DNA from: Chloroflexota bacterium
Lineage (GTDB): Bacteria; Chloroflexota; Dehalococcoidia; Dehalococcoidales; UBA2162
Direction: 5' to 3'
DNA: 15,254 nucleotides
Assembly: GCA_016202555.1 (NCBI GenBank)
Contig: JACQOL010000111.1
Coordinates: 1 to 15,254, forward strand
Part shown: positions 1-15,254 of the stretch, in pieces
Numbering within the stretch: position 1 is the stretch's first letter
Layout: each line of letters opens with the position of its first letter
The notes under the pieces: model-generated
What the model saw: only the letters and a program-made list of their open reading frames with translations
The model's database searches: none
What the model was told of the DNA's origin: nothing
Program-made: the position numbers and the translations under genes

Positions 1-1146
1 GATATTACCTTAAGAGATGGGGAACAGGCAGCCGGAGTTAACTTCTTCCCGGAAGAAAAACTGAGAATTGCTGAACAACTGGTGAAGATGAATTTGCCGA
101 TTATTGAAGCCGGCTTCCCGATTGCTTCTGACTCTGATTTTGAAGGGGTGAGGTTGGTTGCCTCTAAACTGGGCACAAAAGATGGGCCGATTATTTGTGC
201 TATGGCCCGGGCTGAAAAAAAGGATATTGACCGCGCCTGGCAAGCGGTAAGCCCAGCGGCTAAGCCGCGGATTCAAGTGGTGCTGGCGACCTCTGATATC
301 CACATGAAGTATAAATTGATAAAAACCAGGCCGGAAATACTGGAGCAGGCGGCTAACATGGTGGACTATGCCAGACAGCTAACTGATGATGTTGAATTTG
401 CTGCTGAGGATGCTACCAGGAGCGACCCCGAGTTCCTCCATCAGGTCTTCAAAGCCTGTGTTGAAGCTGGCGCCAAAACCTTAGAAATCCCTGATACTGT
501 GGGATACTCAACTCCGGAGGAATATGCCTTAATTGTCAGAGGGGTTTTGGAAAATGTCGTTGGTGATAGAGATATTGTTATCTCCGTTCACTGCCATAAT
601 GACCTCGGCTTAGCCACGGCTAATACCCTGGCTGGTATCAGGGCTGGGGCAAGACAGGCAGAATGCACCATCAACGGTATTGGTGAGAGGGTGGGTAATG
701 CTGCTTTTGAAGAAGTCGTTATGGCTCTTAAGACCAGGCAGAGCTATTATGGTTTTGAAATCGCCATCAATACTACTGAAATTATGAATACCAGCCGGTT
801 GGTGTCCGAATTAGCCAATATCCCCATTGCTCCCAATAAAGCGATTGTCGGGAAAACTGCTTTTGTCCATGAATCGGGTATCCACCAGCATGGCATGATT
901 AGTAACCGTGAAACCTACCAGATTGTTGAGCCGGAAGCCATCGGTCTGAAAAGTTACAGCCTGGTACTGGGCAAACTTTCTGGAAGTCACGCCTTAAAAA
1001 GTAAAATTGAAGAGCTGGGTTTTAAGCTTAGTGAGGCTGATTTTAGGACCGTGTATCAAAATTTTAAGGATTTCGCCGGCAAGAAAAAGTTTATTGTTGA
1101 CGAGGATATTGTTAATCTGGTTAACAAAATCGCTACAAAGCGTTGA
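1..1146 (+). CDS. LeuA-like 2-isopropylmalate/homocitrate synthase family enzyme, 5' partial
   Basis: The reading frame is open from base 1 and starts inside the family's N-terminal signature (DITLRDGEQ), so the start codon lies a short way upstream of the window. Enzymes of this DRE-TIM family condense acetyl-CoA with a 2-oxo acid. The metal site HCHND is at bases 589-603 and the catalytic HESGIHQ at 868-888; NGIGERVGNA and VGKTAFVHES also follow LeuA closely. Only 381 codons are present and the protein ends just after the linker subdomain (LGKLSGSHA, where LeuA usually has LGKHSGRHA). The roughly 120-residue leucine-binding regulatory domain is therefore absent, and feedback inhibition by leucine is not expected. 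No leuB, leuC or leuD is in the window. The stop is 8 bases before the E1 alpha start. I infer a paralogue recruited to the sugar pathway; ordinary isopropylmalate, citramalate or homocitrate synthesis remains possible. The family call is near certain, the substrate unknown. Confidence 0.9.
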   Translation, partial: DITLRDGEQAAGVNFFPEEKLRIAEQLVKMNLPIIEAGFPIASDSDFEGVRLVASKLGTKDGPIICAMARAEKKDIDRAWQAVSPAAKPRIQVVLATSDIHMKYKLIKTRPEILEQAANMVDYARQLTDDVEFAAEDATRSDPEFLHQVFKACVEAGAKTLEIPDTVGYSTPEEYALIVRGVLENVVGDRDIVISVHCHNDLGLATANTLAGIRAGARQAECTINGIGERVGNAAFEEVVMALKTRQSYYGFEIAINTTEIMNTSRLVSELANIPIAPNKAIVGKTAFVHESGIHQHGMISNRETYQIVEPEAIGLKSYSLVLGKLSGSHALKSKIEELGFKLSEADFRTVYQNFKDFAGKKKFIVDEDIVNLVNKIATKR

Positions 1147-1148
1147 GG
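1145..1148 (+). promoter_or_regulatory. Ribosome binding site deciding the E1 alpha start
   Basis: GAGG overlaps the stop codon of the LeuA-like gene and lies 6 bases before GTG at 1155. This favours GTG 1155 over the upstream in-frame TTG codons at 1143 and 1152, which have no properly spaced site. Confidence 0.55.
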
Positions 1149-1154
1149 TGTTTG

Positions 1155-2054
1155 GTGAGTTTAGCTACTTTAGGAGAGATACCAAATCTGGCAGAGTCGT
1201 TTAGTGCTGAAGAGTCGCTTGAGATGTTCCGGCGAATGTGTCTTACCCGCTACTTTGAGATGAGGCTTATTAAAGCTTACAAAGATGGTTTGATTAAGGT
1301 GCCGATATACCTTTCTATCGGTCAGGAGTCAATCTCGGCAGCCGTTGCCACCATGATTTCAGGTTACTATATTTTTGCCCAGCATCGTGCCCATTCGGTT
1401 TATCTGGCTTTTGGCGGGAATCCGGTAAAGCTGATTGATGAGCTTCTAGGACTGCCCACGGGGTGCTCGGCTGGAATGGGTGGCTCGCCCTCAATTCAGG
1501 ACCCGGATATTAAAATGATTGGTCATCACGGGCTTATCGGTGAGAATGTTCCCCTGGCGGTTGGTGCTGCGCTTGGAGCTCCTGATGCCGGTGTGGTCAG
1601 TTTCTTTGGCGATGCTGCCGCCGAGGAGGACTATGTTTTTGCCTCGATGGGCTTTGCCCTGACCCACAAGCTGAAAGTGCTCTTTGTCTGTGAGGACAAT
1701 AACCTTTCCATATTAACGCCCAAGAGTGACCGGCGTAGCTGGGAGATAGCTGATGCTACTCGCTCCATTGGTATGCCGACGGCTGATATCGGCGATGACC
1801 CGTGGCTAATTGCTCACTACACCAGGCAGTTTAGCTCTAATCTTCCTGCCTTCCTGAATTGCCGTACCTGCCGCCACCACTGGCACGTTGGTACTGGAAT
1901 CGATAATCCACCTGAGTGGGATAGATTTACCCTGGTTAAGGAACAACTTGATGCTTTCGGGCTTTCATCCCGTGCCGATAAAATAGAAGCCGAAACAAAG
2001 CAATACGTGGAGAATTTATGGAACGAACGCTTGCCGATACTATCCGGGAAATAA
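1155..2054 (+). CDS. Thiamine-diphosphate-dependent dehydrogenase E1 alpha subunit-like protein
   Basis: This 299-residue protein resembles the alpha subunit of pyruvate/branched-chain 2-oxo-acid dehydrogenase E1, which binds thiamine diphosphate and Mg at the interface with the beta subunit. Visible landmarks are QHRAHS near residue 77, AGMGGS, the GLIGENVPLAVGAALG stretch, and the ThDP motif running from GDA (D153) to DNN (N182-N183). The usual GDG is GDA here, and the following Asn-Gln of the family is Glu-Glu, but the metal-binding Asp and an Asn are kept. It is a little shorter than typical alpha chains (about 320-360). GTG 1155 is chosen because GAGG lies 6 bases upstream. Its end overlaps the beta gene by 37 bases, so the two are translationally coupled. 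No E2 or E3 gene is nearby, so a carboligase-type use, as proposed for the AviB1/AviB2 pair of avilamycin sugar biosynthesis, fits better than a dehydrogenase complex (inference). Confidence 0.88.
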   Translation: MSLATLGEIPNLAESFSAEESLEMFRRMCLTRYFEMRLIKAYKDGLIKVPIYLSIGQESISAAVATMISGYYIFAQHRAHSVYLAFGGNPVKLIDELLGLPTGCSAGMGGSPSIQDPDIKMIGHHGLIGENVPLAVGAALGAPDAGVVSFFGDAAAEEDYVFASMGFALTHKLKVLFVCEDNNLSILTPKSDRRSWEIADATRSIGMPTADIGDDPWLIAHYTRQFSSNLPAFLNCRTCRHHWHVGTGIDNPPEWDRFTLVKEQLDAFGLSSRADKIEAETKQYVENLWNERLPILSGK

Positions 2055-2941
2055 CCAGAGAGCATCTGGAGAAAAACAATGGTTTGCTGCTGGGTCAGGC
2101 AATAAGCGCTGTCGGCTGGGTGAATAATACGGTGCCACCTGATTGTTCCGGTATTATCGAGCTGCCAATGGCTGATGTTGCCGGGCCGGGTATTGCGGTG
2201 GGTGCGGCGGTAGTCGGGCGGCGTCCTATCCTTGTCATTCGTTTTCAGGATTTTATCTTCTTGAATTCAAGTCTGGTAATAAACTATGCGGCTAAGGCAA
2301 AGGATGTGTTTGGTCAGGTGGTGCCAATCTTTGTTAGAGCCATTGCCGATGAAGGCAAAGGTTTAGGCCCGGTGCATTCGGCTTGCCTGCACAGTATTTT
2401 TATGCACATGCCAGGAATGCGGGTTTGTGCCCCGATGACCCCCGAGGAGTATGAGGAGACCTGGGCAGTCTTTATGGCTAATGACGACCCGATGTATGTT
2501 AGCGAGCACCGGCGTAGTTTCGGACAGAAGGGCGAGATGCCAGATATTGTAATCGATAACGCTGACATTACTATTTTTAGCATATCGGCGGCACGCTTTA
2601 GCACCCTTGAGGCGGTTGAAATAGTGAAGCAAGATGGCATCAGGTGCAATGTAATTCATCTGATGTGGCTGAAACCATTTACCCTATCGTCCAGACTGCT
2701 TGAGCCGCTGGAATCGAGCGGTCGGGGTTTAGTTGTTGATAGTGATTTTGCCATTTGTGGCGCCGCCCAGTCTATTGCCTATGAATTGATGACGGCTAGC
2801 GGGCTACCGGTGAAGGCTCTGGGCCGTGAAGACCGCTCCTCTGGAGCCGCTCATCATCTGGAGGTTGGCACTCCTTCTTCACTTAAGATTGCTCAGGCGA
2901 TTAAAGATATCGTCAAAATAGGGAAAAAGGTAAGAACCTGA
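2018..2941 (+). CDS. Thiamine-diphosphate-dependent dehydrogenase E1 beta subunit-like protein
   Basis: This 307-residue protein is the partner of the preceding alpha subunit, a transketolase-type pyrimidine-domain plus C-terminal-domain chain. The region around residues 46-60 aligns without gaps to classical E1 beta (there PxSExGxxGIAVG, here PMADVAGPGIAVG). The Glu that activates the thiamine aminopyrimidine is Asp53 here. The later VHSACLHS corresponds to the active-site HSQS region, and VSEHRR to the conserved segment after it. The C-terminal transketolase domain (about residues 180-300) is present. ATG 2018 has GGAG 5 bases upstream and lies inside the alpha gene. The stop overlaps the next start by one base (TGATG). 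With no E2/E3 acyl carrier it probably donates an acyl or hydroxyalkyl group to a carbonyl acceptor (inference). The fold is certain, the reaction unknown. Confidence 0.88.
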   Translation: MERTLADTIREITREHLEKNNGLLLGQAISAVGWVNNTVPPDCSGIIELPMADVAGPGIAVGAAVVGRRPILVIRFQDFIFLNSSLVINYAAKAKDVFGQVVPIFVRAIADEGKGLGPVHSACLHSIFMHMPGMRVCAPMTPEEYEETWAVFMANDDPMYVSEHRRSFGQKGEMPDIVIDNADITIFSISAARFSTLEAVEIVKQDGIRCNVIHLMWLKPFTLSSRLLEPLESSGRGLVVDSDFAICGAAQSIAYELMTASGLPVKALGREDRSSGAAHHLEVGTPSSLKIAQAIKDIVKIGKKVRT

Positions 2942-4446
2942 TGAATGATAAAATAGATTTATTGTTAGTCAAGCCCGGCAATCAGCAGAAGCTGTATGGG
3001 GAGTTGAGCGCCGCTCTTTCGGGAAGTCTCCCCCTTTCAGCGATTGAGCCTCCGGTATTGGCGGCGGTACTGGCCGCCTTTATCCGGCAACACGGCTATT
3101 CGGTAAAGATGCTCGATGCTGAAGCGGAGAACTTAAGCCCGGAGGGAACCGCTGATAAGATTATCAAGTATAACCCGTTGCTGGCAGCGGTCTTTATCTC
3201 GGGAACAAATCCATCGGCATCTACCCAGAATATGCCCGGTGCCGGGGCTATTATCCGTTCCATAAAAGAAAAGGCCCCCCATATTAAAACCCTTCTGGGC
3301 GGTCTTCATCCATCATCACTTCCCGAACGCACGCTGAAGGAGGAAGATGCCGACTTTGTTTGCCAGGGAGAAGGCTTTGATACTATCTTGCAGTTATTAG
3401 CGGCATTGAAATCAGGGAAGACAGATGATTTGAGCATAAATGGTCTCTGGTATCAGCGGGATGGGAAGGTAATCTCAAATCCCCGGGCACCACTAATCAA
3501 GAACCTCGATGAACTGCCAATGGCGGCCTGGGACCTGTTACCGATGGAGAAATATAGAGCTCACAACTGGCATTGCTTCGGACATCTTGACCAGAGGCAG
3601 CCCTATGCCGTTATCTACACCAGTTTGGGTTGTCCCTTTTCCTGTTCCTTTTGCTGTATCAATTCAATTTTTGGGCAACGGGGTATCCGTTCCCGAAGTC
3701 CGGAGAATGTAATCGAGGAGATAGACTACCTGGTCAAGAATTATCAGATAAAGAATCTCAAGATACTTGATGAGCTATTTGTCATCAATGAGCAGCATGT
3801 TATCGGTCTTTGCGACCTTATTATCCAGCGCGGCTATGATTTGAACATCTGGGCTTACTCCCGAATTGACACCATTAATGAGAAGATGCTCAGGAAGATG
3901 AAGCAGGCTGGTATTAACTGGCTTGCCTATGGCATTGAATCGGGTAGTAAGAAGGTGCGGGATGGCGTTACCAAGGGTAGGTTTGGCCAGGATGATATCA
4001 GAAAAGTGCTTAAGATGACGCGGGCAGCCGGCATTTATATCGGTGGCAACTTTATTTTCGGTCTGCCTGATGACGACATGGAGACAATGCAGGAGACTCT
4101 GGACCTGGCTAAGGAGCTAAATTGTGAATACACTAATCTCTATGTTGCTATGGCTTACCCCGGTTCTCAGCTATATGAAGATGCGGTGTGTAATAATATT
4201 AAACTACCCGACAGCTGGCTGGGCTATGCCCAGTATAGTGATGAAACTTATCCCCTAGCCACTAAATATTTGTCAAGCGCCGATGTCCTTCGCTTCAGAG
4301 ATAGGGCTTTTGAAGAGTTTAACAATAGTCCGCAATATCAGGAAATGATCCGGCAGAAGTTTGGTGAAGATACCGTTGAGCATATTAGGGAAATGCTGAA
4401 ACGTAAACTGCATCGGAAGCTGCTTGAGGAGGAACAGGTGAGATGA
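2941..4446 (+). CDS. B12-binding-domain radical SAM protein
   Basis: The protein has 501 residues. The N-terminal part (about 1-150) is a cobalamin-binding-type Rossmann domain with the GGLHPSSLPE signature. A classical DxHxxG base-off motif is not evident, as in many class B members. The radical SAM core follows, with its [4Fe-4S] motif at C231, C235 and C238 (CX3CX2C), then GIESGS and a GNFIFGLPDD segment typical of these enzymes. The family (BchE-like, class B methylases and oxidoreductases) catalyses methylation of unreactive carbons, cyclisation and other radical chemistry. In a sugar cluster it may C-methylate or rearrange a sugar intermediate (inference). It starts at ATG 2941, overlapping the E1 beta stop by one base, and its stop overlaps the cytidylyltransferase start by 4 bases (ATGA). 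The specific reaction cannot be predicted from sequence. Confidence 0.9.
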   Translation: MNDKIDLLLVKPGNQQKLYGELSAALSGSLPLSAIEPPVLAAVLAAFIRQHGYSVKMLDAEAENLSPEGTADKIIKYNPLLAAVFISGTNPSASTQNMPGAGAIIRSIKEKAPHIKTLLGGLHPSSLPERTLKEEDADFVCQGEGFDTILQLLAALKSGKTDDLSINGLWYQRDGKVISNPRAPLIKNLDELPMAAWDLLPMEKYRAHNWHCFGHLDQRQPYAVIYTSLGCPFSCSFCCINSIFGQRGIRSRSPENVIEEIDYLVKNYQIKNLKILDELFVINEQHVIGLCDLIIQRGYDLNIWAYSRIDTINEKMLRKMKQAGINWLAYGIESGSKKVRDGVTKGRFGQDDIRKVLKMTRAAGIYIGGNFIFGLPDDDMETMQETLDLAKELNCEYTNLYVAMAYPGSQLYEDAVCNNIKLPDSWLGYAQYSDETYPLATKYLSSADVLRFRDRAFEEFNNSPQYQEMIRQKFGEDTVEHIREMLKRKLHRKLLEEEQVR

Positions 4447-5228
4447 AGGTCGTCATTTTTGCCGGTGGCAGAAGGGGAATACGCCTGCGTGAAGATACCG
4501 AGTATCGGCCTAAAGCCTTGGCTCCGGTTGGTGGCTATCCTATTGTCTGGCATGTTATGAATCTATACTCATATTATGGCTTTAATGATTTTGTCCTCTT
4601 GCTTGGCCCGGATAGCTACCAAATAAAGAGCTATTTCCTAAACTACAACGAAATGGTAAGGAATTTTACTCTGGAACTGGGTTCTAAATCTAAATCCTTA
4701 ACCTTCCAGAATTCAAATGCCTCAAGGGATTGGAAGATTGCCTTTGCGGATACCGGAGTAACGATGACCGGCAGGAGCCTGGCTCAGGTTAAACCTCTTA
4801 TCGATAAAGGTTCAAGCTTCTTCCTAACCTATTGCGATACGCTCTCAAATGTAAATATCACCGACCTGAAGAGGTTTCACGAAGCGATGGGGCGGGTGGT
4901 AACTATCACCGGGGCTCACCCCGCTTTCCCTTTGGGAATTGTTGAGGCTGAAGACGGCTTGGTAACCACTTTTCGGGAGAAAAAAAGGTTGGAAGGGTTA
5001 GTCAATGGTGGCTTCTTTGTTTGTGATTATCGTGTTTTTGACTATTTGAAGTTAGCCGGCGATTTTATGTTTGAGGAAGAACCATTACAAAAACTTACTC
5101 AGGAACACGAATTAGCATTGTTCGAGCATAAAGATTTCTGGTATCGGGTTGATACTCATAAAGATATTGAGGCATTAGAAGAGATGTGGAATGCTGACAA
5201 GGCCCTGTGGAAAGTGTGGCAGGATTAA
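4443..5228 (+). CDS. rfbF: Glucose-1-phosphate cytidylyltransferase-like sugar nucleotidyltransferase
   Basis: The 261-residue protein resembles RfbF (CTP plus glucose 1-phosphate to CDP-glucose) along its whole length: RPKALAPVGGYPIVWH, a YSYYG segment, DTGVTMTG, INxGGFFV-like VNGGFFVCDYRVFDY, FEEEPLQKL and KALWKVW at the end. The two metal-binding Asp residues are kept as D132 and D237, offset by +1 from the Salmonella enzyme. The offset comes from one extra residue in the glycine loop: the usual GGLGTRL is GGRRGIRL here (residues 8-15). The usual TYGDGVSDV is TYCDTLSNV. Nucleotide or sugar specificity may therefore differ. GAGGAGGAA lies 8-9 bases before ATG 4443, and the start overlaps the radical SAM stop by 4 bases. 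The family is certain; activation with CTP of a non-glucose sugar phosphate is possible. Confidence 0.85.
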   Translation: MKVVIFAGGRRGIRLREDTEYRPKALAPVGGYPIVWHVMNLYSYYGFNDFVLLLGPDSYQIKSYFLNYNEMVRNFTLELGSKSKSLTFQNSNASRDWKIAFADTGVTMTGRSLAQVKPLIDKGSSFFLTYCDTLSNVNITDLKRFHEAMGRVVTITGAHPAFPLGIVEAEDGLVTTFREKKRLEGLVNGGFFVCDYRVFDYLKLAGDFMFEEEPLQKLTQEHELALFEHKDFWYRVDTHKDIEALEEMWNADKALWKVWQD

Positions 5229-5229
5229 A

Positions 5230-5517
5230 ATGCCAACCACCAGTACCGGTAAAGATTTAGGCGTATTAACCATCCGGCTGGGGGAGAAGGATAGTGTCCT
5301 AACGGCATTAGCTGATATTGAAATGGGAAACTACGTTCTAAATGGTAAGGCTCTGGTTATCCAGGAAAAGATTCCCAGGGGTTTCAAGGTTGCAATTGCC
5401 GCCATTAAGAAGGGGGCAAAGGTGTATAAATATAACATGCCGATTGGCATTGCCAGTAGCGACATTCAATCGGGCAGTTTAGTTCACACCCACAATTTAA
5501 TCAGCGCGGTCAAGTAG
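5230..5517 (+). CDS. SAF-domain small subunit of UxaA/SuyAB-family dehydratase or lyase
   Basis: This is a 95-residue SAF-domain protein. It has the conserved run of the family: IRLGEKDSV, ALADIEMG, the KIPRGFKVAIAAI segment, KYNMPIGIAS and VHTHNL near the C-terminus. In altronate and galactarate dehydratases this is the N-terminal domain. In (R)-sulfolactate sulfo-lyase (SuyA) and several archaeal and bacterial enzymes it is a separate small subunit, as here. ATG 5230 is chosen because the SAF homology begins about ten residues later and it lies one base after the upstream stop. A longer in-frame start at 5191 would sit inside the cytidylyltransferase gene. The stop TAG is followed directly by the large-subunit ATG. 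Confidence 0.88.
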   Translation: MPTTSTGKDLGVLTIRLGEKDSVLTALADIEMGNYVLNGKALVIQEKIPRGFKVAIAAIKKGAKVYKYNMPIGIASSDIQSGSLVHTHNLISAVK

Positions 5518-6681
5518 ATGAGAAGTAATAAGCTGTTAGGATTTCGACGCCGGGATGATATCTTTGGCATCAGGAACCATATCGTTATTCTGCCCACTGT
5601 TCATTGCGCTATTCCGATTGTCCGGCAAATTGCCAGTAGTATTTCCGGAGTTACCCCGATTTTCCATCAGCACGGCTGCGACCACATCGGCGATGACCGC
5701 GAACAGGTTATCCGCACACTGGCTGGTATTGCTAATAATCCCAATGTGGGTGGCCTTTTGCTAGTCGGCTTGGGCTGTGAAAATGTTGCCCTCGACGAAG
5801 TTCTGGCTCGTCTGCATAAGCTAAATCGGCCAGTAGAGAGACTGCTAATCCAGGATATCGGTGATATGGATGAGCTTACCCGTCTTGGTAAGGAATCTAT
5901 CGCCAGAATCAAATCGGTGGTTGATAATCAAACTAGAGAGGAGTTTAATATCTCCCGGTTAGTGGTTGGTGTTGAATGTGGTGCTTCAGACTCATTTTCG
6001 GGCATCACGGCAAACCCGGCAGTGGGCATGGTGGCAGATAAACTGGTTGCCCTGGGGGCGACGGTGATTCTATCTGAAACTCCCGAATTAATCGGCGCCG
6101 AACCGCTGCTACTAAAAAGAATTCCCGATAAGAATGCCCAGGACAAATTGTTAACCAGAACTAGGCGCTACATAGAAATTGCCCGTTCCCTGGGTCAGGA
6201 TTTAATTGGGACTAATCCCACGCCGGGCAATATCAGGGCCGGAATCACGACCATTGAGGAGAAATCACTTGGTGCCGTGGCTAAAGGGGGCACTAGCCAG
6301 ATTAATCAAATTATTGACTATGCCGAAGTACCAAATCAAAAGGGATTGGTGATTATGGATACACCGGGTAATGACCCCGAGTCGCTGACCGGGTTGGTGG
6401 CTGGTGGGGCCCATTTAATCCTTTTTACTACTGGCTTGGGCACGCCCCTGGGCTACCCTATCGTTCCGGTTATCAAGATTTCTTCTAATAGTGAAACATT
6501 TTGCAAGATGGGCAGCTTTACTGATATAGATGCCGGTAGCATATTAAATGGCAAAACTATTACCGAAGTAGCTGACAATATCTTCCGGTTGCTTCTAGAT
6601 GTTGCGGGAGGGGAAAAAACAGTCTCAGAAAACTGGAGCAGTGGCGAAATAGCCATTAACCGGCTGGCGCCGACCTTTTAG
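5518..6681 (+). CDS. Large (catalytic) subunit of UxaA/GarD/SuyB-family dehydratase or lyase
   Basis: The protein has 387 residues and covers the whole catalytic part of the family: LGFRRRDDIFGIRNH at the N-terminus, LPTVHCA, LLLVGLGCEN, VVGVECGASDSFSGITANP, ILSETPELIGAE, NPTPGNIRAGITT, EKSLGAVAKGG, IMDTPGNDPES and FTTGLGTPLG. Known members eliminate water from sugar acids (altronate, galactarate) or sulfite from sulfolactate (SuyB). Its length and separate SAF partner resemble SuyAB, but sequence alone does not separate desulfonation from dehydration. ATG 5518 abuts the small-subunit stop, so the pair is coupled. No uxaB, uxaC or kdg genes accompany it, so it is probably not for hexuronate catabolism. 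I infer dehydration of a sugar-acid or hydroxy-acid intermediate in the biosynthetic pathway. Confidence 0.88.
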   Translation: MRSNKLLGFRRRDDIFGIRNHIVILPTVHCAIPIVRQIASSISGVTPIFHQHGCDHIGDDREQVIRTLAGIANNPNVGGLLLVGLGCENVALDEVLARLHKLNRPVERLLIQDIGDMDELTRLGKESIARIKSVVDNQTREEFNISRLVVGVECGASDSFSGITANPAVGMVADKLVALGATVILSETPELIGAEPLLLKRIPDKNAQDKLLTRTRRYIEIARSLGQDLIGTNPTPGNIRAGITTIEEKSLGAVAKGGTSQINQIIDYAEVPNQKGLVIMDTPGNDPESLTGLVAGGAHLILFTTGLGTPLGYPIVPVIKISSNSETFCKMGSFTDIDAGSILNGKTITEVADNIFRLLLDVAGGEKTVSENWSSGEIAINRLAPTF

Positions 6682-6711
6682 AGTTGACTGATAAAAAACT
6701 TAACCTTGTCT

Positions 6712-6716
6712 GGGGG
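6712..6716 (+). promoter_or_regulatory. Ribosome binding site deciding the phosphatase start
   Basis: A GGGGG run lies 4 bases before ATG 6721. It would be inside the coding region if the in-frame TTG at 6706 were used, and that codon has no purine-rich site upstream. Confidence 0.4.
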
Positions 6717-6720
6717 TAAA

Positions 6721-7482
6721 ATGGATACGATTCGCCAGGTATTAGAGATGGCGGCTCAAGAGGGGTCAAAGGCTATCTCAGCTACAAAAAAAGAGGGTAT
6801 TAGTATCAGAGAAAAATCTTACAAGGATTTGGTTACTGACTGTGATATTGCTTCGGAAAAAGCAATCATATCGGTATTACGTGGGGCATTTCCTGAATCG
6901 GCTTTCTACTCTGAAGAAGCCGGATATGAGGAGGGTGAAAACTGGCTCTGGGTGATTGACCCGATAGACGGAACACACAATTTTGTTTATGGCTTACCCG
7001 GCTACGGAATTTCAATCGCCGGAGTTAAAGAGAATAAATTCATTGTTGGCTTAATCTATTTACCCGAAACGAACGACTACTTCTTTGCTTACAGGAATAA
7101 AGGTGCTGATATGAATGGTAAAAAGCTCAGCGTATCCAATAGAGATAAGTTAGCTCAGTCAATGATTGCTTATGACAACCAGTTTCACAATCACCCATTG
7201 ATGCTCAAGAACTTCAAACCGGTGATTGATGCCTGTTTTACCATCCGGATTTTGGGTTCAGCAGTCGTTGACCTTTGTAAAGTTGCCGGGGGTGTTCTTG
7301 ATGCCCGCATATTTCATCAGCCTAAATTGGTCGATTTTGCGGCCGGGGCACTTATTGTGGAAGAGGCCGGTGGAGTGGTAACCGACCTGAATGGTGAAAA
7401 GGTTACCTTAAATTCGGCCAGTGTTGTTGCTTCAAATGGTCGCATCCATCAGAGTCTGCTCAGTGTTTTGAACAAGGGATAG
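6721..7482 (+). CDS. Inositol-monophosphatase-family sugar phosphatase
   Basis: This is a 253-residue Mg-dependent phosphatase of the IMPase/FBPase superfamily. The metal-binding residues are visible: E65-E66 in YSEEAG, D80 and D83 in DPIDGTHNF, and D205 in VDFAAG (usually WDxAAG, Val for Trp here), followed by EEAGG. Homologues hydrolyse inositol 1-phosphate, histidinol phosphate, fructose 1,6-bisphosphate or 3'-phosphoadenosine 5'-phosphate. In this cluster it probably removes a phosphate from a sugar or hydroxy-acid phosphate made by its neighbours (inference). ATG 6721 is preferred over TTG 6706 because of the GGGGG run just upstream. It follows the large dehydratase subunit by 39 bases and precedes the PdxA-like gene by 9 bases. 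Confidence 0.88.
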   Translation: MDTIRQVLEMAAQEGSKAISATKKEGISIREKSYKDLVTDCDIASEKAIISVLRGAFPESAFYSEEAGYEEGENWLWVIDPIDGTHNFVYGLPGYGISIAGVKENKFIVGLIYLPETNDYFFAYRNKGADMNGKKLSVSNRDKLAQSMIAYDNQFHNHPLMLKNFKPVIDACFTIRILGSAVVDLCKVAGGVLDARIFHQPKLVDFAAGALIVEEAGGVVTDLNGEKVTLNSASVVASNGRIHQSLLSVLNKG

Positions 7483-7488
7483 GAGGAG
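7481..7488 (+). promoter_or_regulatory. Strong ribosome binding site of the PdxA-like gene
   Basis: AGGAGGAG overlaps the phosphatase stop codon. The core AGGAGG ends 5 bases before the second of two tandem ATG codons (7489 and 7492), so the second is the better start. It is the strongest Shine-Dalgarno sequence I saw in the window. Confidence 0.6.
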
Positions 7489-7491
7489 ATG

Positions 7492-8523
7492 ATGGGTATA
7501 CCAAGAATTGCGATAACAATGGGCGACCCGGCCGGGATTGGTCCTGAGATTATCGTAAAGGTGCTTTCGCTGATGGAAACCTATGATATTTGCCAGCCTC
7601 TGGTCGTGGGCAGTAAAGAAATCATTGAAGATGCTGTCCGCATTACCCATCGGGCCCTGAAAACAAATGCGGTCAAAAGTCCCGAGGAAGGGAACTATCG
7701 TTACGGTGTGATTGACCTGTTGGATTTGGCTAATATCAAGATTAAGGATGTGGAGTATGGTAAGGTTTCTGCCCAATGCGGTAAAGCCGCCGGAGAGGTA
7801 ATTGCTAAAGCGATTGAACTGGCAAAGGCTGGTGAAGTAGATGCCGTAGTGACGGCACCAATCCATAAGGAGTCCTTTAAGTTGGGTGGTTGGGGTGAAA
7901 AGTATGTTGGGCACACCGAAATGTTTGCCGATTTAACCAATACTAAGAAGTATACAATGATGCTGGCTCATGGCGATTTTAAGGTGGTGCATGTTTCAAC
8001 CCATGTTCCTTTAGCCGAGGCGGTAAAGCTGGTTAAGAAAGATAGGATTCTTGAAGTAATCAAGATTGCTCATGATGCCTGTTTGACTCTTGGCATAAAA
8101 AAACCGAAGATAGCGGTTGCCGGACTTAATCCCCACGCCGGTGATGGTGGCGTCCTGGGAAGGGAGGAAATCGACGAGATAATACCAGCAATCAAAGAGG
8201 CGCAGCTTCTGGGCATTAATGCTGATGGTCCTGTTCCGGCCGATACTGTTTTCTCTAAGGCGGTTGGCGGGTGGTATGATATCGTGGTTACGATGTATCA
8301 TGACCAAGGTCATATTCCGATGAAAACGCTGGGTTTTGTCTGGGATGAGAGCCGTAAGGATTGGAAAGAGGTATCGGGAATTAATGCTACTCTTGGGTTG
8401 CCCATTATTAGAGTTTCCGTTGACCACGGTACCGCTTTTGGTAAAGCGGGCAAGGGGACTGCCCGCCCCGATAGCCTGATTGATGCTATCAAACTGGCAG
8501 TAAGGTTGGTCGGAAGTAGATAA
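7492..8523 (+). CDS. pdxA: PdxA-family 4-phospho-hydroxy-acid dehydrogenase (decarboxylating)
   Basis: The 343-residue protein has the full PdxA signature set: ITMGDPAGIGPE at 8-19, TAPIHKE, GHTEMFADLT, STHVPL, LNPHAGDGG, MYHDQGH and VDHGTAFGKAGKG. The three metal-ligand histidines of the E. coli enzyme correspond to H171, H215 and H270. PdxA oxidises 4-phosphohydroxy-L-threonine in vitamin B6 synthesis; PdxA2 relatives act on 4-phospho-D-threonate or -erythronate. All oxidise a beta-hydroxy acid with decarboxylation and share fold and chemistry with isopropylmalate dehydrogenase. An extra segment of about 12 residues (around VWDESRKDWKEVSG) precedes the TLGLP motif. No other B6 gene is present, and the position between a phosphatase and sugar enzymes suggests a sugar-acid phosphate substrate (inference). 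The second ATG (7492) is chosen for its spacing from AGGAGG. Confidence 0.88.
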   Translation: MGIPRIAITMGDPAGIGPEIIVKVLSLMETYDICQPLVVGSKEIIEDAVRITHRALKTNAVKSPEEGNYRYGVIDLLDLANIKIKDVEYGKVSAQCGKAAGEVIAKAIELAKAGEVDAVVTAPIHKESFKLGGWGEKYVGHTEMFADLTNTKKYTMMLAHGDFKVVHVSTHVPLAEAVKLVKKDRILEVIKIAHDACLTLGIKKPKIAVAGLNPHAGDGGVLGREEIDEIIPAIKEAQLLGINADGPVPADTVFSKAVGGWYDIVVTMYHDQGHIPMKTLGFVWDESRKDWKEVSGINATLGLPIIRVSVDHGTAFGKAGKGTARPDSLIDAIKLAVRLVGSR

Positions 8524-8564
8524 TTAAGCCCTGTGGGGTTGGTCAGAACGAGGTATATTTTATA

Positions 8565-9098
8565 GTGGATAAAAGCCAGCATCAGTCAAGTCAGATACAG
8601 AAAATTTGGGAAACAGAATGGTTCTCTATCGAAGCTGTACCCAATCAATCTTCGAGTGGCCGACCCTATTTCCGATTGTCGATGAATGATTCGGTTGAGG
8701 TGATTGCGGTTACTCCGGATAAAAAGATTATCCTGGTGCGGCAGTTTAGACCGGCCTTAGGTATTTCAATGCTGGAACTGCCGGCTGGCCACGTTGATAC
8801 AGGAGAATCAAGGGAAGAAGCCATCATCAGGGAATTGAGAGAGGAAACAGGGTATGTTTGTGATGAGACAACCTGTCTTGGTTCTTTCCGGATTGCCCCC
8901 AGCCGGATTAACAATACCTTGCACTTTTTCTTTGGGAAAGGTGCAAGGACGATGGATGTAAAAGGGGAAAGGGGGAGAGAGACTGAGGTTGTTTTAGTGA
9001 CAGAGGACGAATTTAACAAATTGATTTTAGATGGTAAGTTCTTAGAGGTTGCCGGGGTCGCCAGTTACTTTTTATCCCGGCTTAAAGGATTTTTATAA
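8565..9098 (+). CDS. Nudix hydrolase, ADP-ribose pyrophosphatase-like
   Basis: The 177-residue protein has a perfect Nudix box at residues 75-97: G75, E81, R89-E90, E93-E94, G96. The layout (KIILVRQFRP, LELPAGHVD before and within the box) is that of ADP-ribose/nucleoside-diphosphate-sugar pyrophosphatases. Such enzymes split the diphosphate of NDP-sugars, so it may clear dead-end or side-product sugar nucleotides of this pathway (inference), or be a general housekeeping enzyme. GTG 8565 is the only plausible start before the domain. The upstream GAGG is far away (about 11 bases), so expression may be weak or coupled. It lies 41 bases after the PdxA-like gene and 72 bases before the next. Confidence 0.85.
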   Translation: MDKSQHQSSQIQKIWETEWFSIEAVPNQSSSGRPYFRLSMNDSVEVIAVTPDKKIILVRQFRPALGISMLELPAGHVDTGESREEAIIRELREETGYVCDETTCLGSFRIAPSRINNTLHFFFGKGARTMDVKGERGRETEVVLVTEDEFNKLILDGKFLEVAGVASYFLSRLKGFL

Positions 9099-9103
9099 TT
9101 TTA

Positions 9104-9120
9104 GGTAATGTGTAATTACC
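9104..9120. repeat. Short inverted repeat in the 72-base gap
   Basis: GGTAAT and ATTACC form a perfect 6-base inverted repeat around a 5-base loop, just after the Nudix stop. No T-run follows, so it is not a convincing Rho-independent terminator. It could be a weak operator or chance. A poor promoter-like pair (TTGCCT at 9127, GATAAC at 9149, 16-base spacer) follows it before the next gene. Confidence 0.2.
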
Positions 9121-9170
9121 ATTCTCTTGCCTGAGTTTCAAAGAATAGGATAACTTTAGGGGATAGTTAT

Positions 9171-11056
<1,886 letters not shown>

Positions 11057-11067
11057 GAGGTAACAGG

Positions 11068-12075
11068 GTGATTATTAGTCGAACCCCTTTTCGTATTTCA
11101 TTTTTTGGCGGTGGTACCGACTACCCGGTCTGGTACCATGAAAATGGTGGTGCGGTATTGGGCACAACCATCGACAAGTATTGCTATATCACCTGCCGTT
11201 ACCTGCCGCCGTTCTTTGAACATAAGTACCGCATTGTTTATTCCCTTACAGAGCTTGTCCGTGATATTGATGAAATCCGTCACCCTGCTGTCAGAGAAAC
11301 CCTCCGATTTCTCGGAATTACTGAAGGAGTGGAAATTCACCACGATGGCGACTTGCCAGCCAGAACGGGATTGGGCTCAAGCTCATCATTTACTGTCGGT
11401 CTCCTCCACGCACTTTATGCCCTCAAAGGAATTATGCCTCCTAAGATGCAATTAGCCCAGGAGGCAATCGATATTGAGCAGAATATAATTAAGGAAAATG
11501 TCGGCTCTCAAGACCAGGTTTTAGCCGCTTTTGGTGGATTCAGCCGCATCAATTTTAGCGGAGATGGTAATATCGAAATTGAACATATCATCATCAAGCC
11601 ACAACGGCTTGAGTTACTTCAGAATCATTTGATGCTATTCTTTACCGGGTTTTCCAGGACGGCTTCGGAAATTGCCAGCGAGCAAATTAAACAGACCCCT
11701 AATAAAAAGCGGGAACTAGCAGAAATGCAAGGTATGGTGGACGAGGCTATAAATATTCTTGATGGAGACAATGACCTGCTAGAATTCGGAAAACTACTGC
11801 ACCAGAGCTGGCAACTGAAACGCAGCTTAACCGATAGAATATCGACGCCTTCTATTGATGCCATTTACGATAGGGCAATTTGTGCTGGTGCTACCGGTGG
11901 TAAGCTACTGGGTGCCGGCGGCGGGGGCTTTATCCTGCTCTTTGTCAGTCCTGAGCTTCAAGCCAGGGTAAAGGAAAATCTAAATGGTTTGTTGCACGTT
12001 CCTTTCCGCTTTGAGAACTTAGGTAGCCAGATTATCTTTTATGAGCCGGATTTATTTTATGGGAATTCGGGGTGA
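11068..12075 (+). CDS. GHMP-family sugar kinase, D-glycero-D-manno-heptose 7-phosphate kinase-like
   Basis: The 335-residue protein has the three GHMP motifs: the N-terminal SRTPFRISFFGGGTDYP, the ATP loop PARTGLGSSSS at residues 97-107 and KLLGAGGGGF at 279-288. The N-terminus and overall length match HddA-type heptose 7-phosphate kinases and relatives that phosphorylate the anomeric C1 hydroxyl, giving the substrate for a nucleotidyltransferase. HddA normally travels with gmhA, gmhB and hddC, none of which is here, so the true sugar may differ. The cytidylyltransferase-like protein could be the next enzyme (inference). GTG 11068 is supported by GAGG with a 7-base spacer and by homology starting at residue 1. 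A 129-base gap follows. Confidence 0.87.
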   Translation: MIISRTPFRISFFGGGTDYPVWYHENGGAVLGTTIDKYCYITCRYLPPFFEHKYRIVYSLTELVRDIDEIRHPAVRETLRFLGITEGVEIHHDGDLPARTGLGSSSSFTVGLLHALYALKGIMPPKMQLAQEAIDIEQNIIKENVGSQDQVLAAFGGFSRINFSGDGNIEIEHIIIKPQRLELLQNHLMLFFTGFSRTASEIASEQIKQTPNKKRELAEMQGMVDEAINILDGDNDLLEFGKLLHQSWQLKRSLTDRISTPSIDAIYDRAICAGATGGKLLGAGGGGFILLFVSPELQARVKENLNGLLHVPFRFENLGSQIIFYEPDLFYGNSG

Positions 12076-12159
12076 TGCTTCCCTTTAGTCTTAGTCAAGT
12101 GATGGTACAGATTTAAAACCGCCGGCAAGTCGCTCGGGTAAACGATGCTCTGGCGATGG

Positions 12160-12168
12160 TGATATAAG
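12160..12168 (+). promoter_or_regulatory. Possible extended -10 promoter element
   Basis: TGATATAAG matches the extended -10 form TGnTATAAT at 8 of 9 specified or free positions. It lies 36 bases before the DegT-fold gene in the largest non-coding gap. No good -35 hexamer sits 16-18 bases upstream, which extended -10 promoters can tolerate. It could start an internal transcript for the 3-dehydrase and exporter genes. Pattern match only. Confidence 0.3.
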
Positions 12169-12182
12169 CTTGAAGTATGACA

Positions 12183-12195
12183 CCCTGTTCCAGGG
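12183..12195 (+). promoter_or_regulatory. Small hairpin overlapping the ribosome binding site of the DegT-fold gene
   Basis: CCCTG, loop TTC, then CAGGG form a perfect 5-base-pair, GC-rich stem. The 3' arm contains part of the Shine-Dalgarno sequence AGGGGG (12192-12197) for ATG 12205. If formed in the mRNA it would partly hide the site. It is short and could be chance. Confidence 0.3.
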
Positions 12196-12204
12196 GGATA
12201 AGAA

Positions 12205-13323
12205 ATGCGAATAATGTTTGGCGACCTTAAAATTGGTGATACTGCCCGAAAATATATCCAGAGAGCGCTTGATAGCAACTGGGTTTCCGAGGGAGCTAAT
12301 GTTAAAGAATTTGAGCAAAATTTTGCTAATAAATTTGGTTATAAGCATGCTATTGCCACCAGCTCAGGTACGGATGCCGATATCGTCTCCTGTGCTTCAC
12401 TGTATGATTTCGGGGCTAACCGGGGGGATGAAATTATTGTCCCGGCGTTATGCTTTGTTGCCTGTGCCAATTCAATTCTGGCTGCCGGTTTTACCCCTAA
12501 ATTCGTTGATGTCAGGGTCGATAGCCTGAATATCGACCCGGCTAAAATTGATGAGGCGATTACCGATAAGACCAGAGCCATCATGGTGGTTCATACAATG
12601 GGTAAACCTTGTGAAATGGATGCTATTCTTAAAATTGCTCGCCCCCACAATCTAAAGATTATCGAAGATGCCTGTGAGGCGCATGGGGCTACTTATAAAG
12701 GTAAATTTGTCGGCAGTATTGGCGATATGGGCACTTTTAGTTTTTATGCTGCTCATGTCGTCGTTGCCGGCGAAGGCGGGATGGTGGTTACCAATAATGA
12801 TGAAATCGCTAATGTGGTTCGGTCAGTAAAATCTCACGGTCGTCCTTTCGGTAGTATCTACTTTGATTTCCAGCGGATTGGCTTTAACTCCAGAATGAAT
12901 GAGCTGACGGCTGCCATTGGACTGGAAGGTCTGGAAAAGTTTGATCAGACCTTCAGTAAACGCAAGGGTAATTTTTATAAGTTATTAGAATTGACCAGAG
13001 GGTTATCTGATTACCTTTACTTTCCTAAAGAAGAGAGCTATGAAAAAATAAGCCCTCATGCTTTTTCCATCGTCTTGAAAGATAAGAAATATGATTGCCC
13101 AAAACTCTACAAATATCTGGAAGCCAAAGGTATTCAGTGTAAGACCTTATTCGCCAGCTTGCCCACCCAGCACCGAGCGTTCCAATTTATGAACTACAAA
13201 TACGGTCAGTTCCCGGTATCGGAGTATATTGGGGAAAACGGGCTGCATTTTGGTATTCACCAGTATTTAACTGAAGATGATTTGGTCTATATTAGCGATA
13301 CCCTAAAAGCCTATTTTAAGTGA
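12205..13323 (+). CDS. ColD/RfbH-type PMP-dependent sugar 3-dehydrase, DegT/DnrJ/EryC1/StrS fold
   Basis: The 372-residue protein has the DegT aminotransferase fold: NWVSEG near the start, TSSGTDAD, the cofactor-binding D155 in IIEDACEAHG, and SRMNELTAAIGL. The position of the PLP Schiff-base lysine, normally in SFxxxK, is H184 in SFYAAH, followed by GEGG. His at this place is the hallmark of ColD (GDP-4-keto-6-deoxymannose 3-dehydratase) and RfbH (CDP-4-keto-6-deoxyglucose 3-dehydrase), which use pyridoxamine phosphate to remove the 3-hydroxyl. I see no cysteine cluster after the active site like the [2Fe-2S] motif of RfbH, and the length is close to ColD (about 390), so it is probably iron-sulfur-free. 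The substrate must be a 4-keto nucleotide sugar; the 4,6-dehydratase making it is not in the window. AGGGGG lies 7 bases before ATG 12205. Confidence 0.85.
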   Translation: MRIMFGDLKIGDTARKYIQRALDSNWVSEGANVKEFEQNFANKFGYKHAIATSSGTDADIVSCASLYDFGANRGDEIIVPALCFVACANSILAAGFTPKFVDVRVDSLNIDPAKIDEAITDKTRAIMVVHTMGKPCEMDAILKIARPHNLKIIEDACEAHGATYKGKFVGSIGDMGTFSFYAAHVVVAGEGGMVVTNNDEIANVVRSVKSHGRPFGSIYFDFQRIGFNSRMNELTAAIGLEGLEKFDQTFSKRKGNFYKLLELTRGLSDYLYFPKEESYEKISPHAFSIVLKDKKYDCPKLYKYLEAKGIQCKTLFASLPTQHRAFQFMNYKYGQFPVSEYIGENGLHFGIHQYLTEDDLVYISDTLKAYFK

Positions 13324-13331
13324 GAGGATAA

Positions 13332-14159
13332 ATGCAAGCAAAACCATATTTAGTTATCAAGCCGAAAAAAGGCTGGCAGCTAATTGATTTCAAAGAGCTA
13401 ATTGAGTATCGCGACCTGTTCTACTTCCTGGTTACTCGTGATATTAAGGTGCGCTATAAGCAAACCGTGTTGGGCGGGTTGTGGGCAATTATCCAGCCCT
13501 TTTTTATGATGGTTGTTTTCAGCCTTTTCTTTGGCACTTTAGCTAAAGTGCCTTCTGATGGCGTTCCTTACCCCATCTTTAACTATTCGGCAATGATTGC
13601 CTGGACTTATTTTGCCGGTGCCGTTACCGGTTCGAGCAATAGCCTTCTTCAGGAAGCCAGTTTAATATCCAAGGTCTATTTCCCTCGCCTGATTGCTCCC
13701 TTAGCCCCGCTGCTGGCAGGTTTACTGGACTTTGCTATTGCCTTTATCGTTTTAATCGTTATGATGCTTTTTTATCGGGTCTACCCGACTATTATGATAC
13801 TATTTTTGCCCCTCCTGGTGCTCCTGATGATGCTGGCCGCCAGTGGGGTCGGCATGTTTCTGGCCGCTCTAAACGCTAACTACCGTGACATCCGCTACAC
13901 GATTTCATTTTTAGTGCAGTTCTGGATGTTTGCCTCACCGGTCGTTTATCCGGTGTCGATAATACCGGAAAAGTATCGTCTTATTTATGCTATCAATCCG
14001 ATGGTTGGCGTCATTGAGGGGTTTCGCTCGGCGTTACTGGGGACGGTCGCTTTCCCCATTCAGATGCTGCTAATTTCTACCCTGGTAAGTGTGATACTAT
14101 TTATTATTGGAGCGTTGTATTTTAAACAGACAGAACGCTCTTTTGCTGATGTGATTTGA
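13332..14159 (+). CDS. wzm: ABC-2 type polysaccharide exporter permease (Wzm/TagG family)
   Basis: The 275-residue integral membrane protein has about six hydrophobic segments and a charged N-terminal cytoplasmic part. The family signature RDIKVRYKQTVLGGLW is at about residues 37-52, and the conserved NANYRDIRYTISFLVQFWMF, YPVSIIPEKYR and NPMVGVIEGFR regions follow. Wzm/TagG permeases form the channel through which lipid-linked O-polysaccharide or teichoic acid crosses the cytoplasmic membrane. It starts 8 bases after the 3-dehydrase stop with AGAGG upstream, and the ATPase gene follows after 8 bases. The close link to the sugar genes indicates that the sugar is part of an exported surface glycan. 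Whether that is O-antigen or a Gram-positive-type wall polymer depends on the host, which I cannot tell. Confidence 0.92.
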   Translation: MQAKPYLVIKPKKGWQLIDFKELIEYRDLFYFLVTRDIKVRYKQTVLGGLWAIIQPFFMMVVFSLFFGTLAKVPSDGVPYPIFNYSAMIAWTYFAGAVTGSSNSLLQEASLISKVYFPRLIAPLAPLLAGLLDFAIAFIVLIVMMLFYRVYPTIMILFLPLLVLLMMLAASGVGMFLAALNANYRDIRYTISFLVQFWMFASPVVYPVSIIPEKYRLIYAINPMVGVIEGFRSALLGTVAFPIQMLLISTLVSVILFIIGALYFKQTERSFADVI

Positions 14160-14167
14160 GGTGGGGA

Positions 14168-15254
14168 ATGTCTGAGCCAATAATTAAGGTTAAAAACCTC
14201 TCTAAGCGCTATCGAATTGGCGCCCGGGAACAGTATAAAACATTTCGTGAAGCAATCATAGACGGCATCAGTGCCCCGGTGAGAAATTTGGGCAGACTGC
14301 GCCGTATGACCAGGTTCAAAGATGGTGATGAGGCTGATGTCATCTGGGCGCTGAAGGATGTCTCCTTTGATGTTAGTGAAGGGGAAGTGCTGGGTATCAT
14401 CGGCAGGAATGGGGCTGGTAAGACTACGGTTTTGAAAATCTTATCCCGCATTACTGAACCAACTGGTGGTTTCGCTGAAATTTATGGCCGGGTTTCCAGC
14501 TTGCTGGAGGTTGGTACCGGCTTCCATCCTGAGCTTACCGGCCGCGAGAATATTTTTCTGAATGGTGCTATTCTGGGGATGCGGAAGCGGGAAATCGAGC
14601 AGAAGTTCGACGAAATTATTGCTTTTGCCGAACTGGAGAAGTTTCTGGATACCCCGGTGAAGCGATATTCCAGCGGTATGTATGTTCGGCTCGCTTTTGC
14701 CGTGGCGGCTCACTTGGAGCCGGAGGTTTTGCTAGTGGACGAAGTGCTGGCGGTGGGAGACATTGCCTTTCAGCAGAAATGCCTGGGAAAAATGGAAGAA
14801 GTGGCTAAAGGGGGGCGGACGGTGCTCTTTGTCAGCCATAATATGGGGGCAATCCGTAACTTATGTAACAGCGTTCTCTGGCTAGATAGTGGTCAGGTAG
14901 TGAAAAAAGGGGCAACTGATGAGGTGGTCAGGGACTACGAAGAGCAGATGTTAAAGCATTTTGACAAGTCTTCCTATGTTGTAGAAAGAAATCCGGAAGA
15001 GGTCAAGGGTAAGAGCTTCTATTTCAGCCGCGTTGAAATGCGGGATGCCAGGGGTGAAAATACTAACCTGTTTAGATATAATGACACATTAGTCTTGCTT
15101 GTTGATTTTGCCGGTGAGCTTGCCGGAGGTAATTTTTGTCCTGAATTCTATCTCCATAATGAGCTAGGGCAACTGGTTTCCGTCGGGTCATCAGGGGTTT
15201 TGCACAGTGTTTATTTCGGCGATAAAGTTAGAAAAGTAAGAATAGATATTGGAC
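14168..15254 (+). CDS. wzt: ABC polysaccharide exporter ATPase with C-terminal glycan-binding domain (Wzt), 3' partial
   Basis: The frame from ATG 14168 (GAGG 6 bases upstream) stays open for 362 codons to the end of the window. The nucleotide-binding domain (about residues 1-260) has Walker A GRNGAGKT at 79-86, the signature SSGMY at 168-172, Walker B LLVDE at 188-192 and the H-loop His224. The long insert between the first strands (about residues 20-58) is usual for Wzt/TagH. After residue 270 a beta-rich region begins (SFYFSRVEMRD, FRYNDTLVLLVDF), as in the Wzt C-terminal domain that recognises the modified end of the O-polysaccharide. This domain is cut by the window edge. It energises export together with the preceding permease. 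Confidence 0.92.
   Translation, partial: MSEPIIKVKNLSKRYRIGAREQYKTFREAIIDGISAPVRNLGRLRRMTRFKDGDEADVIWALKDVSFDVSEGEVLGIIGRNGAGKTTVLKILSRITEPTGGFAEIYGRVSSLLEVGTGFHPELTGRENIFLNGAILGMRKREIEQKFDEIIAFAELEKFLDTPVKRYSSGMYVRLAFAVAAHLEPEVLLVDEVLAVGDIAFQQKCLGKMEEVAKGGRTVLFVSHNMGAIRNLCNSVLWLDSGQVVKKGATDEVVRDYEEQMLKHFDKSSYVVERNPEEVKGKSFYFSRVEMRDARGENTNLFRYNDTLVLLVDFAGELAGGNFCPEFYLHNELGQLVSVGSSGVLHSVYFGDKVRKVRIDIG

Follow-up and report, generated by a model that had tools for sequence, protein, structure and literature searches.

Contig JACQOL010000111.1 of a Chloroflexota bacterium (assembly GCA_016202555.1; order Dehalococcoidales) was analysed over positions 1 to 15,254, a stretch of 15,254 nucleotides called here the window. 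It carries 16 genes, all on the plus strand and separated by small gaps, in a genome of 0.955 Mb with an estimated completeness of 62%. At its head, a paralogue of 2-isopropylmalate synthase (LeuA) directly precedes the genes of a stand-alone E1 alpha/beta pair dependent on thiamine pyrophosphate (TPP). The pairing of these genes is the subject of this work. In glycan-type islands of distant phyla, the same LeuA paralogue is tied as adjacent gene to stand-alone E1 alpha/beta genes, which is a solid comparative finding, and its recurrence in very distant bacteria suggests an undescribed route for making carbon branches and attaching them to sugars.

The original prediction, made from the sequence alone, had placed a LeuA-like enzyme, a UxaA/SuyAB-like dehydratase of small and large subunits, a PdxA-family enzyme and the E1 pair in one co-directional run. 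All these genes are indeed present on the plus strand within positions 1 to 8523, with family matches far above chance. The order could be completed with two genes between E1 and UxaA, for a B12-binding radical SAM protein and a nucleotidyltransferase, and with a phosphatase gene between UxaA and PdxA:

1 to 1146, plus strand: LeuA-like condensing enzyme without regulatory domain (HMGL-like, E = 1.5e-85; HCS_D2, 1.2e-27), 5' end cut by the contig start
1155 to 2054, plus strand: stand-alone TPP-dependent E1 alpha (E1_dh, 2.6e-17), start 1155 according to relatives, 1143 also possible
2018 to 2941, plus strand: stand-alone E1 beta (family match)
2941 to 4446, plus strand: B12-binding radical SAM protein
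4443 to 5228, plus strand: RfbF-like nucleotidyltransferase (nearest NCBIfam model glucose-1-phosphate cytidylyltransferase, 222 bits for a cut-off of 300)
5230 to 5517, plus strand: SAF-domain small subunit of a UxaA-like dehydratase (longest open reading frame from 5191; 5230 is our reading of the start)
5518 to 6681, plus strand: UxaA-like dehydratase large subunit (GD_AH_C, 3.1e-91)
6706 to 7482, plus strand: inositol-monophosphatase-family (IMPase-type) phosphatase (family match)
7489 to 8523, plus strand: PdxA-family oxidative decarboxylase (7.3e-105), closest to PdxA2-type structures

Gaps and overlaps across this stretch amount to at most a few tens of bases, so that it reads as a single operon, and the co-directional run extends into a Wzm/Wzt glycan-export operon. 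No E2 or E3 gene was found among the 16 genes scanned, the search covering the window only. An E1 pair without E2/E3 in a sugar cluster is the arrangement of the AviB1/AviB2 type. The surroundings of the LeuA gene hold no ilv or leu genes on the downstream side; the gene upstream is off the contig.

LeuA and E1 alpha as neighbours

Related loci were collected by scanning genome contigs with an alignment of 18 E1 alpha sequences, and the best 80 of at least 184 confirmed relatives gave 79 loci. The core set comprises 60 loci, namely the window and 59 of the loci collected, with an E1 alpha profile score above 350, three partial loci being added to those above the threshold. Genes were counted by profile searches of all open reading frames with score thresholds. 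Loci truncated at the end of a contig (L012, L014, L021, L028, L033, L039, L051, L058 and L060 among others) were kept in the counts, and neighbours may be hidden there.

In 13 of the 60 core loci (12 of 59 besides the window), the gene immediately upstream of E1 alpha, on the same strand, is LeuA. In 11 of these 13 the first possible start of E1 alpha overlaps the end of LeuA or follows it by at most 21 bp; the distance is 176 bp in the closely related loci L043 and L044. The carriers belong to Omnitrophota, Planctomycetota, Vogelbacteria, Nitrospiraceae and Alphaproteobacteria/Proteobacteria, including two magnetospirilla, which makes five named phyla besides the window; Paramagnetospirillum kuznetsovii is a culturable carrier. 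Among the other families counted, B12 radical SAM proteins were found in 28 core loci (window included), SDR in 31, HddA in 30, DegT in 31, Fcl-like proteins in 23, DJ-1 in 33, cupins in 21, HAD phosphatases in 19, class-I aminotransferases in 13 and UxaA in 10. PdxA was found in none of the 79 related loci fetched. Relatives of the radical SAM protein also stand beside other E1 types (L064, L067 to L069), and this protein may act on the same sugar.

Ten of the 12 other LeuA loci also encode a class-I aminotransferase. Counting recognised genes only, it comes immediately before LeuA in eight; a radical SAM gene stands between the two in L034 and L038. In three Nitrospira-type loci (L008, L015, L017) the aminotransferase directly precedes E1 alpha, without LeuA. 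Three of these aminotransferases, compared with NCBIfam, reached no cut-off among the matches listed.

LeuA and DJ-1 never occur together in a core locus (0 of 60; Fisher's test 4e-6, a value overstated through shared ancestry), and 14 core loci, several of them cut by contig ends, contain neither. The DJ-1/PfpI protein is found near the E1 pair, for instance in L003, L004, L006, L009, L011, L016, L018, L032, L048 and L052, often together with a HAD phosphatase and with a cupin resembling mannose-6-phosphate isomerase, the latter sometimes apparently fused to the Fcl-like SDR. Four glycan-type loci (L005, L010, L022, L025) hold a second, different E1 alpha/beta pair, which gives the impression that two kinds of branch are attached there.

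A shortened LeuA with an altered pocket

The LeuA of the window is 381 residues long, some 7 to 8 residues short at the contig start by comparison with its relatives, and stops after HCS_D2: the C-terminal leucine-binding regulatory domain is missing. The same domain is gone in all 12 cluster relatives, in which the BLAST alignments reach the last residues at the end of the window protein; seven of the 12 were also inspected in full alignment. These proteins measure 384 to 424 residues, against 498 to 560 for full-length LeuA. In a tree of 36 LeuA/HMGL proteins, the window LeuA and the 12 LeuA encoded beside E1 alpha elsewhere form one clade (support 100/99), apart from 17 full-length LeuA; 10 of these belong to carrier genomes, the other 7 to genomes with an E1 locus free of LeuA.

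Four positions separate this clade from all the full-length proteins. In window numbering, M68, Q92, A134 and E162 are present in 13 of 13 clade members, where 45 of 45 full-length LeuA (the 17 of the tree and 28 more sampled around the Omnitrophota carrier G294) have L, H, S and N. The catalytic and metal-binding residues R5, D6, Q9, T166, H197, H199, H295 and Y306 are unchanged in both groups. When aligned to the structure 6e1j, which we take to be BjMAM1A, a plant methylthioalkylmalate synthase (MAMS), Q92 falls on residue 182 and E162 on residue 253.

The numbering of 6e1j, whose record is entitled 2-isopropylmalate synthase, fits PMC8468904, as Arg89, Asp90, Thr257, His288 and His290 fall where expected. 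According to that paper, Val182 and Ala253 of BjMAM1A are among the residues toward which the substrate side chain points. A134 aligns with a position that is Gly in all the MAMS examined in PMC6603273 (see also PMC11532901). Three of the five near-substrate positions given in PMC6603273 are among the 15 diagnostic columns of the clade (hypergeometric 5e-4, a loose value, the positions having been picked for variability). As in MAMS, the regulatory domain is lost and changes lie at positions 186, 229 and 257 of AtMAM1, assuming an offset of four from BjMAM1A. The LeuA of this clade is, on the strength of these alignments, a specialised paralogue with changed residues at positions that, in a related solved enzyme, line the 2-oxo-acid side-chain pocket, and the Glu and Gln of this pocket suggest a polar substrate.

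A second LeuA is present in the window's own genome (L102), adjoining a gene read by eye as ilvC, itself a 132-residue fragment at a contig end. Because of this second copy, the absence of the regulatory domain throughout the clade and the rebuilt pocket, the window LeuA does not resemble a housekeeping enzyme. The possibility that the cluster LeuA is the sole LeuA of its genome was rejected for this genome and for 10 of the 12 other carriers, which contain a full-length LeuA; none was seen in carriers G297 and G300. A LeuA-type match was found in 161 of 193 genomes sampled from the phylum of one carrier. Among the matches listed, two belong to the short clade (frames of 399 and 395 residues, 62% and 59% identity), both beside E1; a further one, in G1717, is an open frame of 426 residues with 52% identity, shorter than the other full-length matches.

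The clade shares with type I LeuA the catalytic barrel, the post-barrel domain and the checked metal and catalytic residues, at 48 to 55% identity; it differs by the missing regulatory domain and by the four replaced, otherwise invariant residues, and the window copy by its location in a glycan operon. The likeness to plant MAMS (6e1j) consists in derivation from LeuA, with the regulatory domain given up and the same pocket positions altered, and also in working with an aminotransferase, BCAT in the plant. Plant MAMS, however, have mostly small or aliphatic residues where the clade has the polar Q and E, and the clade is bacterial and adjoins a TPP enzyme; an independent origin appears probable. 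The window protein exceeds the cut-off of one NCBIfam 2-isopropylmalate synthase model (NF002086, 556.6 bits for 532), the other LeuA models listed remaining under theirs. The M/Q/A/E residues with the missing regulatory domain are useful as a sharp signature separating the clade from true LeuA.

UxaA, PdxA and the glycan-export half

The dehydratase of the window has all three expected domains, SAF, GD_AH_second and GD_AH_C, and its large-subunit gene is directly followed by that of the phosphatase. Fourteen relatives of the large subunit (P0002 to P0015) are 71 to 86% identical. No close relative could be placed in a genomic context: in a sample of the class, 16 of 294 genomes matched, the window's own included, the best others at 46 to 47% identity, and in phylum-level samples drawn around three further genomes, strict cut-offs left matches in 1 of 297, 0 of 343 and 0 of 327, figures which show little. 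The small UxaA subunit as a protein of its own was not found in any of the 79 related loci, where so short a protein could be missed. Within the DNA fetched, neither UxaA nor PdxA occurs in the 12 other LeuA-E1 loci, and among the loci examined UxaA stands beside LeuA in the window only.

The closest solved relatives are 6u7l for UxaA and 4jqp, 2hi1 and 6e85 for PdxA, the latter including PdxA2-type enzymes. The window PdxA has an HDQGH stretch like the PdxA2-type structures; 1ps7, presumably the E. coli PdxA, has HDQGL. It scores 348 bits against TIGR00557 (cut-off 290) and stays under the cut-offs of the other PdxA models listed. PdxS is present in 23 of 31 genomes of the family and order, the window's own counted among the 31 (10 of the 11 good ones), and was not found in the 62%-complete genome itself. 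The PdxA family is present in 8 of the 31 (1 of the 11 good ones), the searches having covered PdxS and PdxA. Since most relatives carry PdxS, the window PdxA is unlikely to serve vitamin B6 synthesis; it is probably a sugar-acid enzyme. According to PMC9997740, PdxA2 serves acid catabolism and can also perform the PdxA reaction. The window set differs from the PdxA2-type dehydrogenases and the UxaA/GarD dehydratases, its closest solved relatives, by its location in a glycan operon, and no DUF1537-type kinase, catabolic gene or uptake gene was recognised in the window. In two related loci (L134, L135), PdxA adjoins a protein read by eye as a DUF1537-type sugar-acid kinase. In L138, from the window's order, PdxA (1399 to 2415) directly follows a gene (3 to 1373) for what appears by eye to be an acetolactate-synthase-type TPP enzyme.

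The remainder of the window encodes the following proteins:

8565 to 9098, plus strand: NUDIX hydrolase (relative in E1 locus L006, 58% identity)
9171 to 10127, plus strand: GDP-fucose-synthase-like (Fcl-like) SDR (family match)
10124 to 11056, plus strand: NAD-dependent epimerase/dehydratase (SDR; 31 of 60 core loci)
11068 to 12075, plus strand: HddA-like GHMP kinase (30 of 60)
12205 to 13323, plus strand: DegT-family aminotransferase (31 of 60)
13332 to 14159, plus strand: Wzm-type glycan export permease (family match)
14156 to 15253, plus strand: Wzt-type glycan export ATPase (family match), 3' end open

Of 400 genomes sampled from the phylum of the window, a single one, the window's own, gave a match to E1 alpha at E <= 1e-50. 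A 72% identical relative, P0125, is also named Chloroflexota bacterium, so that within this phylum the family extends beyond the window. The Chloroflexi locus L064 (7800 to 18500) contains counterparts of Fcl, SDR, HddA, DegT, Wzm and Wzt at 65 to 80% identity and a radical SAM gene 60% identical; its E1 pair is different (36% and 30%), and no LeuA, UxaA or PdxA is present in the DNA fetched. From the shared second half and the different E1, a glycan operon appears to have had its front half exchanged.

A proposed donor supply for the E1 pair

The aminotransferase, LeuA and UxaA families all act on or towards 2-oxo acids, and the best reading of these loci is the supply of unusual donors to the TPP enzyme. 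Under the preferred reading, to which a probability of about 45% is given, the LeuA paralogue would lengthen a polar 2-oxo acid, and the E1 pair would decarboxylate the product and add the acyl group to a keto sugar. From the residues of its pocket, the paralogue is predicted to condense acetyl-CoA with a hydroxylated or amino-bearing 2-oxo acid, which in most relatives the nearby class-I aminotransferase would supply. Isomerisation and oxidative decarboxylation of the condensation product would follow; most hosts would use the housekeeping LeuCD and LeuB for this, and part of it might fall to UxaAB and PdxA in the window. The resulting 2-oxo acid would be decarboxylated by E1 alpha/beta and the acyl carbanion, by analogy with proposed sugar-branching pairs, transferred to a keto-sugar nucleotide, for which the products of the SDR, Fcl-like and DegT genes would be responsible. 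A sugar with a carbon branch other than acetyl would finally be exported by Wzm/Wzt. UxaAB and the phosphatase would more probably yield a 2-oxo-3-deoxy acid, as a second 2-oxo-acid source for the same TPP enzyme.

Proposed precedents exist for the last enzymatic step. In PMC4425429 and PMC4753412, AviB1/AviB2 and Pau11/Pau12 are pyruvate-dehydrogenase-like pairs, and the addition of two carbons as a branch on a 4-keto sugar is proposed for them. The E1 pair EvdU5/EvdS3 has also been proposed to add a two-carbon branch. By description rather than by sequence, AviB1/AviB2 and Pau11/Pau12 resemble the window pair as stand-alone E1 alpha/beta genes in a sugar-modifying cluster; they use pyruvate in antibiotic pathways, whereas the window pair is flanked by 2-oxo-acid-forming families in a surface-glycan operon. 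YerE (yersiniose, O-antigen; PMC4753412) is another case of TPP-dependent C-branching in a surface glycan, but as a single TPP-dependent flavoprotein instead of an E1 pair. Turning the LeuA product back into a 2-oxo acid takes LeuCD- and LeuB-like enzymes, and the hosts may draw on their housekeeping ones, as happens in plant chain elongation (PMC8468904).

Several observations weigh against this reading. The loci, as the best 80 of at least 184 relatives, are not independent samples. Mapped onto the E1 alpha tree, the presence of LeuA has to change 6 times, and branches with good support force at least 4 of these changes, so that LeuA and E1 were not simply inherited together; these changes at the same time suggest that modules were exchanged around a common E1 pair. 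The class-I aminotransferase was not found in the LeuA loci L025 and L030, nor is one seen beside LeuA in the window, where the upstream side is off the contig and is predicted to hold one. No homologue of LeuC, LeuD or LeuB came to light in the other LeuA loci, where no search was aimed at these families, and the elongation cycle consequently needs enzymes from elsewhere. Finally, the other two near-substrate positions of PMC6603273 do not set the clade apart: P164 has not changed, and at S195 7 of the 13 clade members have S and 6 have A. A broader view, tentative and with the odds against it, is that these loci represent a bacterial, horizontally spread counterpart of plant 2-oxo-acid elongation, in which an aminotransferase and a neofunctionalised LeuA freed from feedback would supply a custom 2-oxo acid, whose acyl unit an E1-type TPP carboligase would pass to a keto-sugar nucleotide. 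Swappable modules (LeuA or DJ-1/HAD/cupin/UxaA) would then feed a common E1 pair and vary the branches of surface glycans.

Other explanations of the gene set have to be considered. The E1 pair might receive two separate 2-oxo acids, one made by LeuA and the other, a 2-oxo-3-deoxy sugar acid, by the phosphatase and UxaAB, with PdxA acting upstream on a phosphorylated sugar acid. The phosphatase gene directly after the large UxaA subunit is consistent with this arrangement, as is the occurrence of a longer, presumably fused UxaA with E1 in nine other core loci, eight of which contain DJ-1 and six of these eight a HAD phosphatase; L016, with a tblastn match to the large subunit at 33%, is absent from this profile count. 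The UxaA proteins of the nine loci are, however, 34 to 39% identical to the window subunit, so that the substrate may differ, and the DJ-1 step is left unexplained. This double supply is judged unlikely.

In the original prediction, LeuA, UxaAB and PdxA formed a complete analogue of the LeuA-LeuCD-LeuB series, lengthening a hydroxylated 2-oxo acid for E1. The association of LeuA with E1 alpha/beta stands, as described above; the cycle itself is not borne out by the comparison and is considered quite improbable. In its favor, all its genes lie in one tight operon, UxaAB is made up of a large and a small subunit as LeuCD is, PdxA and LeuB both decarboxylate beta-hydroxyacids oxidatively, and the presence of PdxS in most relatives makes a role of PdxA in B6 synthesis doubtful. 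UxaA and PdxA nevertheless fail to accompany LeuA in the DNA fetched for the 12 other LeuA-E1 loci, UxaA occurring instead in a locus type mostly with DJ-1, and neither PdxA nor the small subunit (which could be missed) was found in the 79 related loci. The chemistry points in the same direction: enzymes of the UxaA family dehydrate to a 2-oxo-3-deoxy acid and do not perform the LeuCD isomerisation of a malate, and where the function of a PdxA-family enzyme is known, the substrate is mostly a 4-phosphorylated acid, a preference which the adjoining phosphatase gene fits.

It is still harder to see in the LeuA paralogue a feedback-resistant isopropylmalate or citramalate synthase that raises the branched 2-oxo-acid pool for the acyl group, with no new specificity. 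The score above the NF002086 cut-off and the intact catalytic residues would agree with such a role, but the four residues invariant in full-length LeuA, of which three occupy published pocket positions, have been replaced throughout the clade, with Glu and Gln at two positions facing the substrate side chain in the related enzyme. That LeuA is a stray hitch-hiker without glycan role, left by horizontal assembly of the islands, is hardly credible: the E1 alpha match in 1 of 400 genomes of the window's phylum could be taken that way, against the same-strand adjacency in five other named phyla and the clade-wide residue signature.

Among the titles and abstract openings listed from the open-licence literature, no pathway with LeuA or with UxaA/PdxA in surface-glycan clusters was found, nor was the LeuA-E1 module with its residue signature. 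If the elongation of a polar 2-oxo acid by the LeuA paralogue and its transfer by the E1 pair are true, the leucine pathway of primary metabolism would be linked to the diversity of surface sugars through a compact module found in mostly uncultured phyla. The polar-pocket LeuA paralogue and the two-subunit carboligase would then also be tractable enzymes for the synthesis of C-branched sugars.

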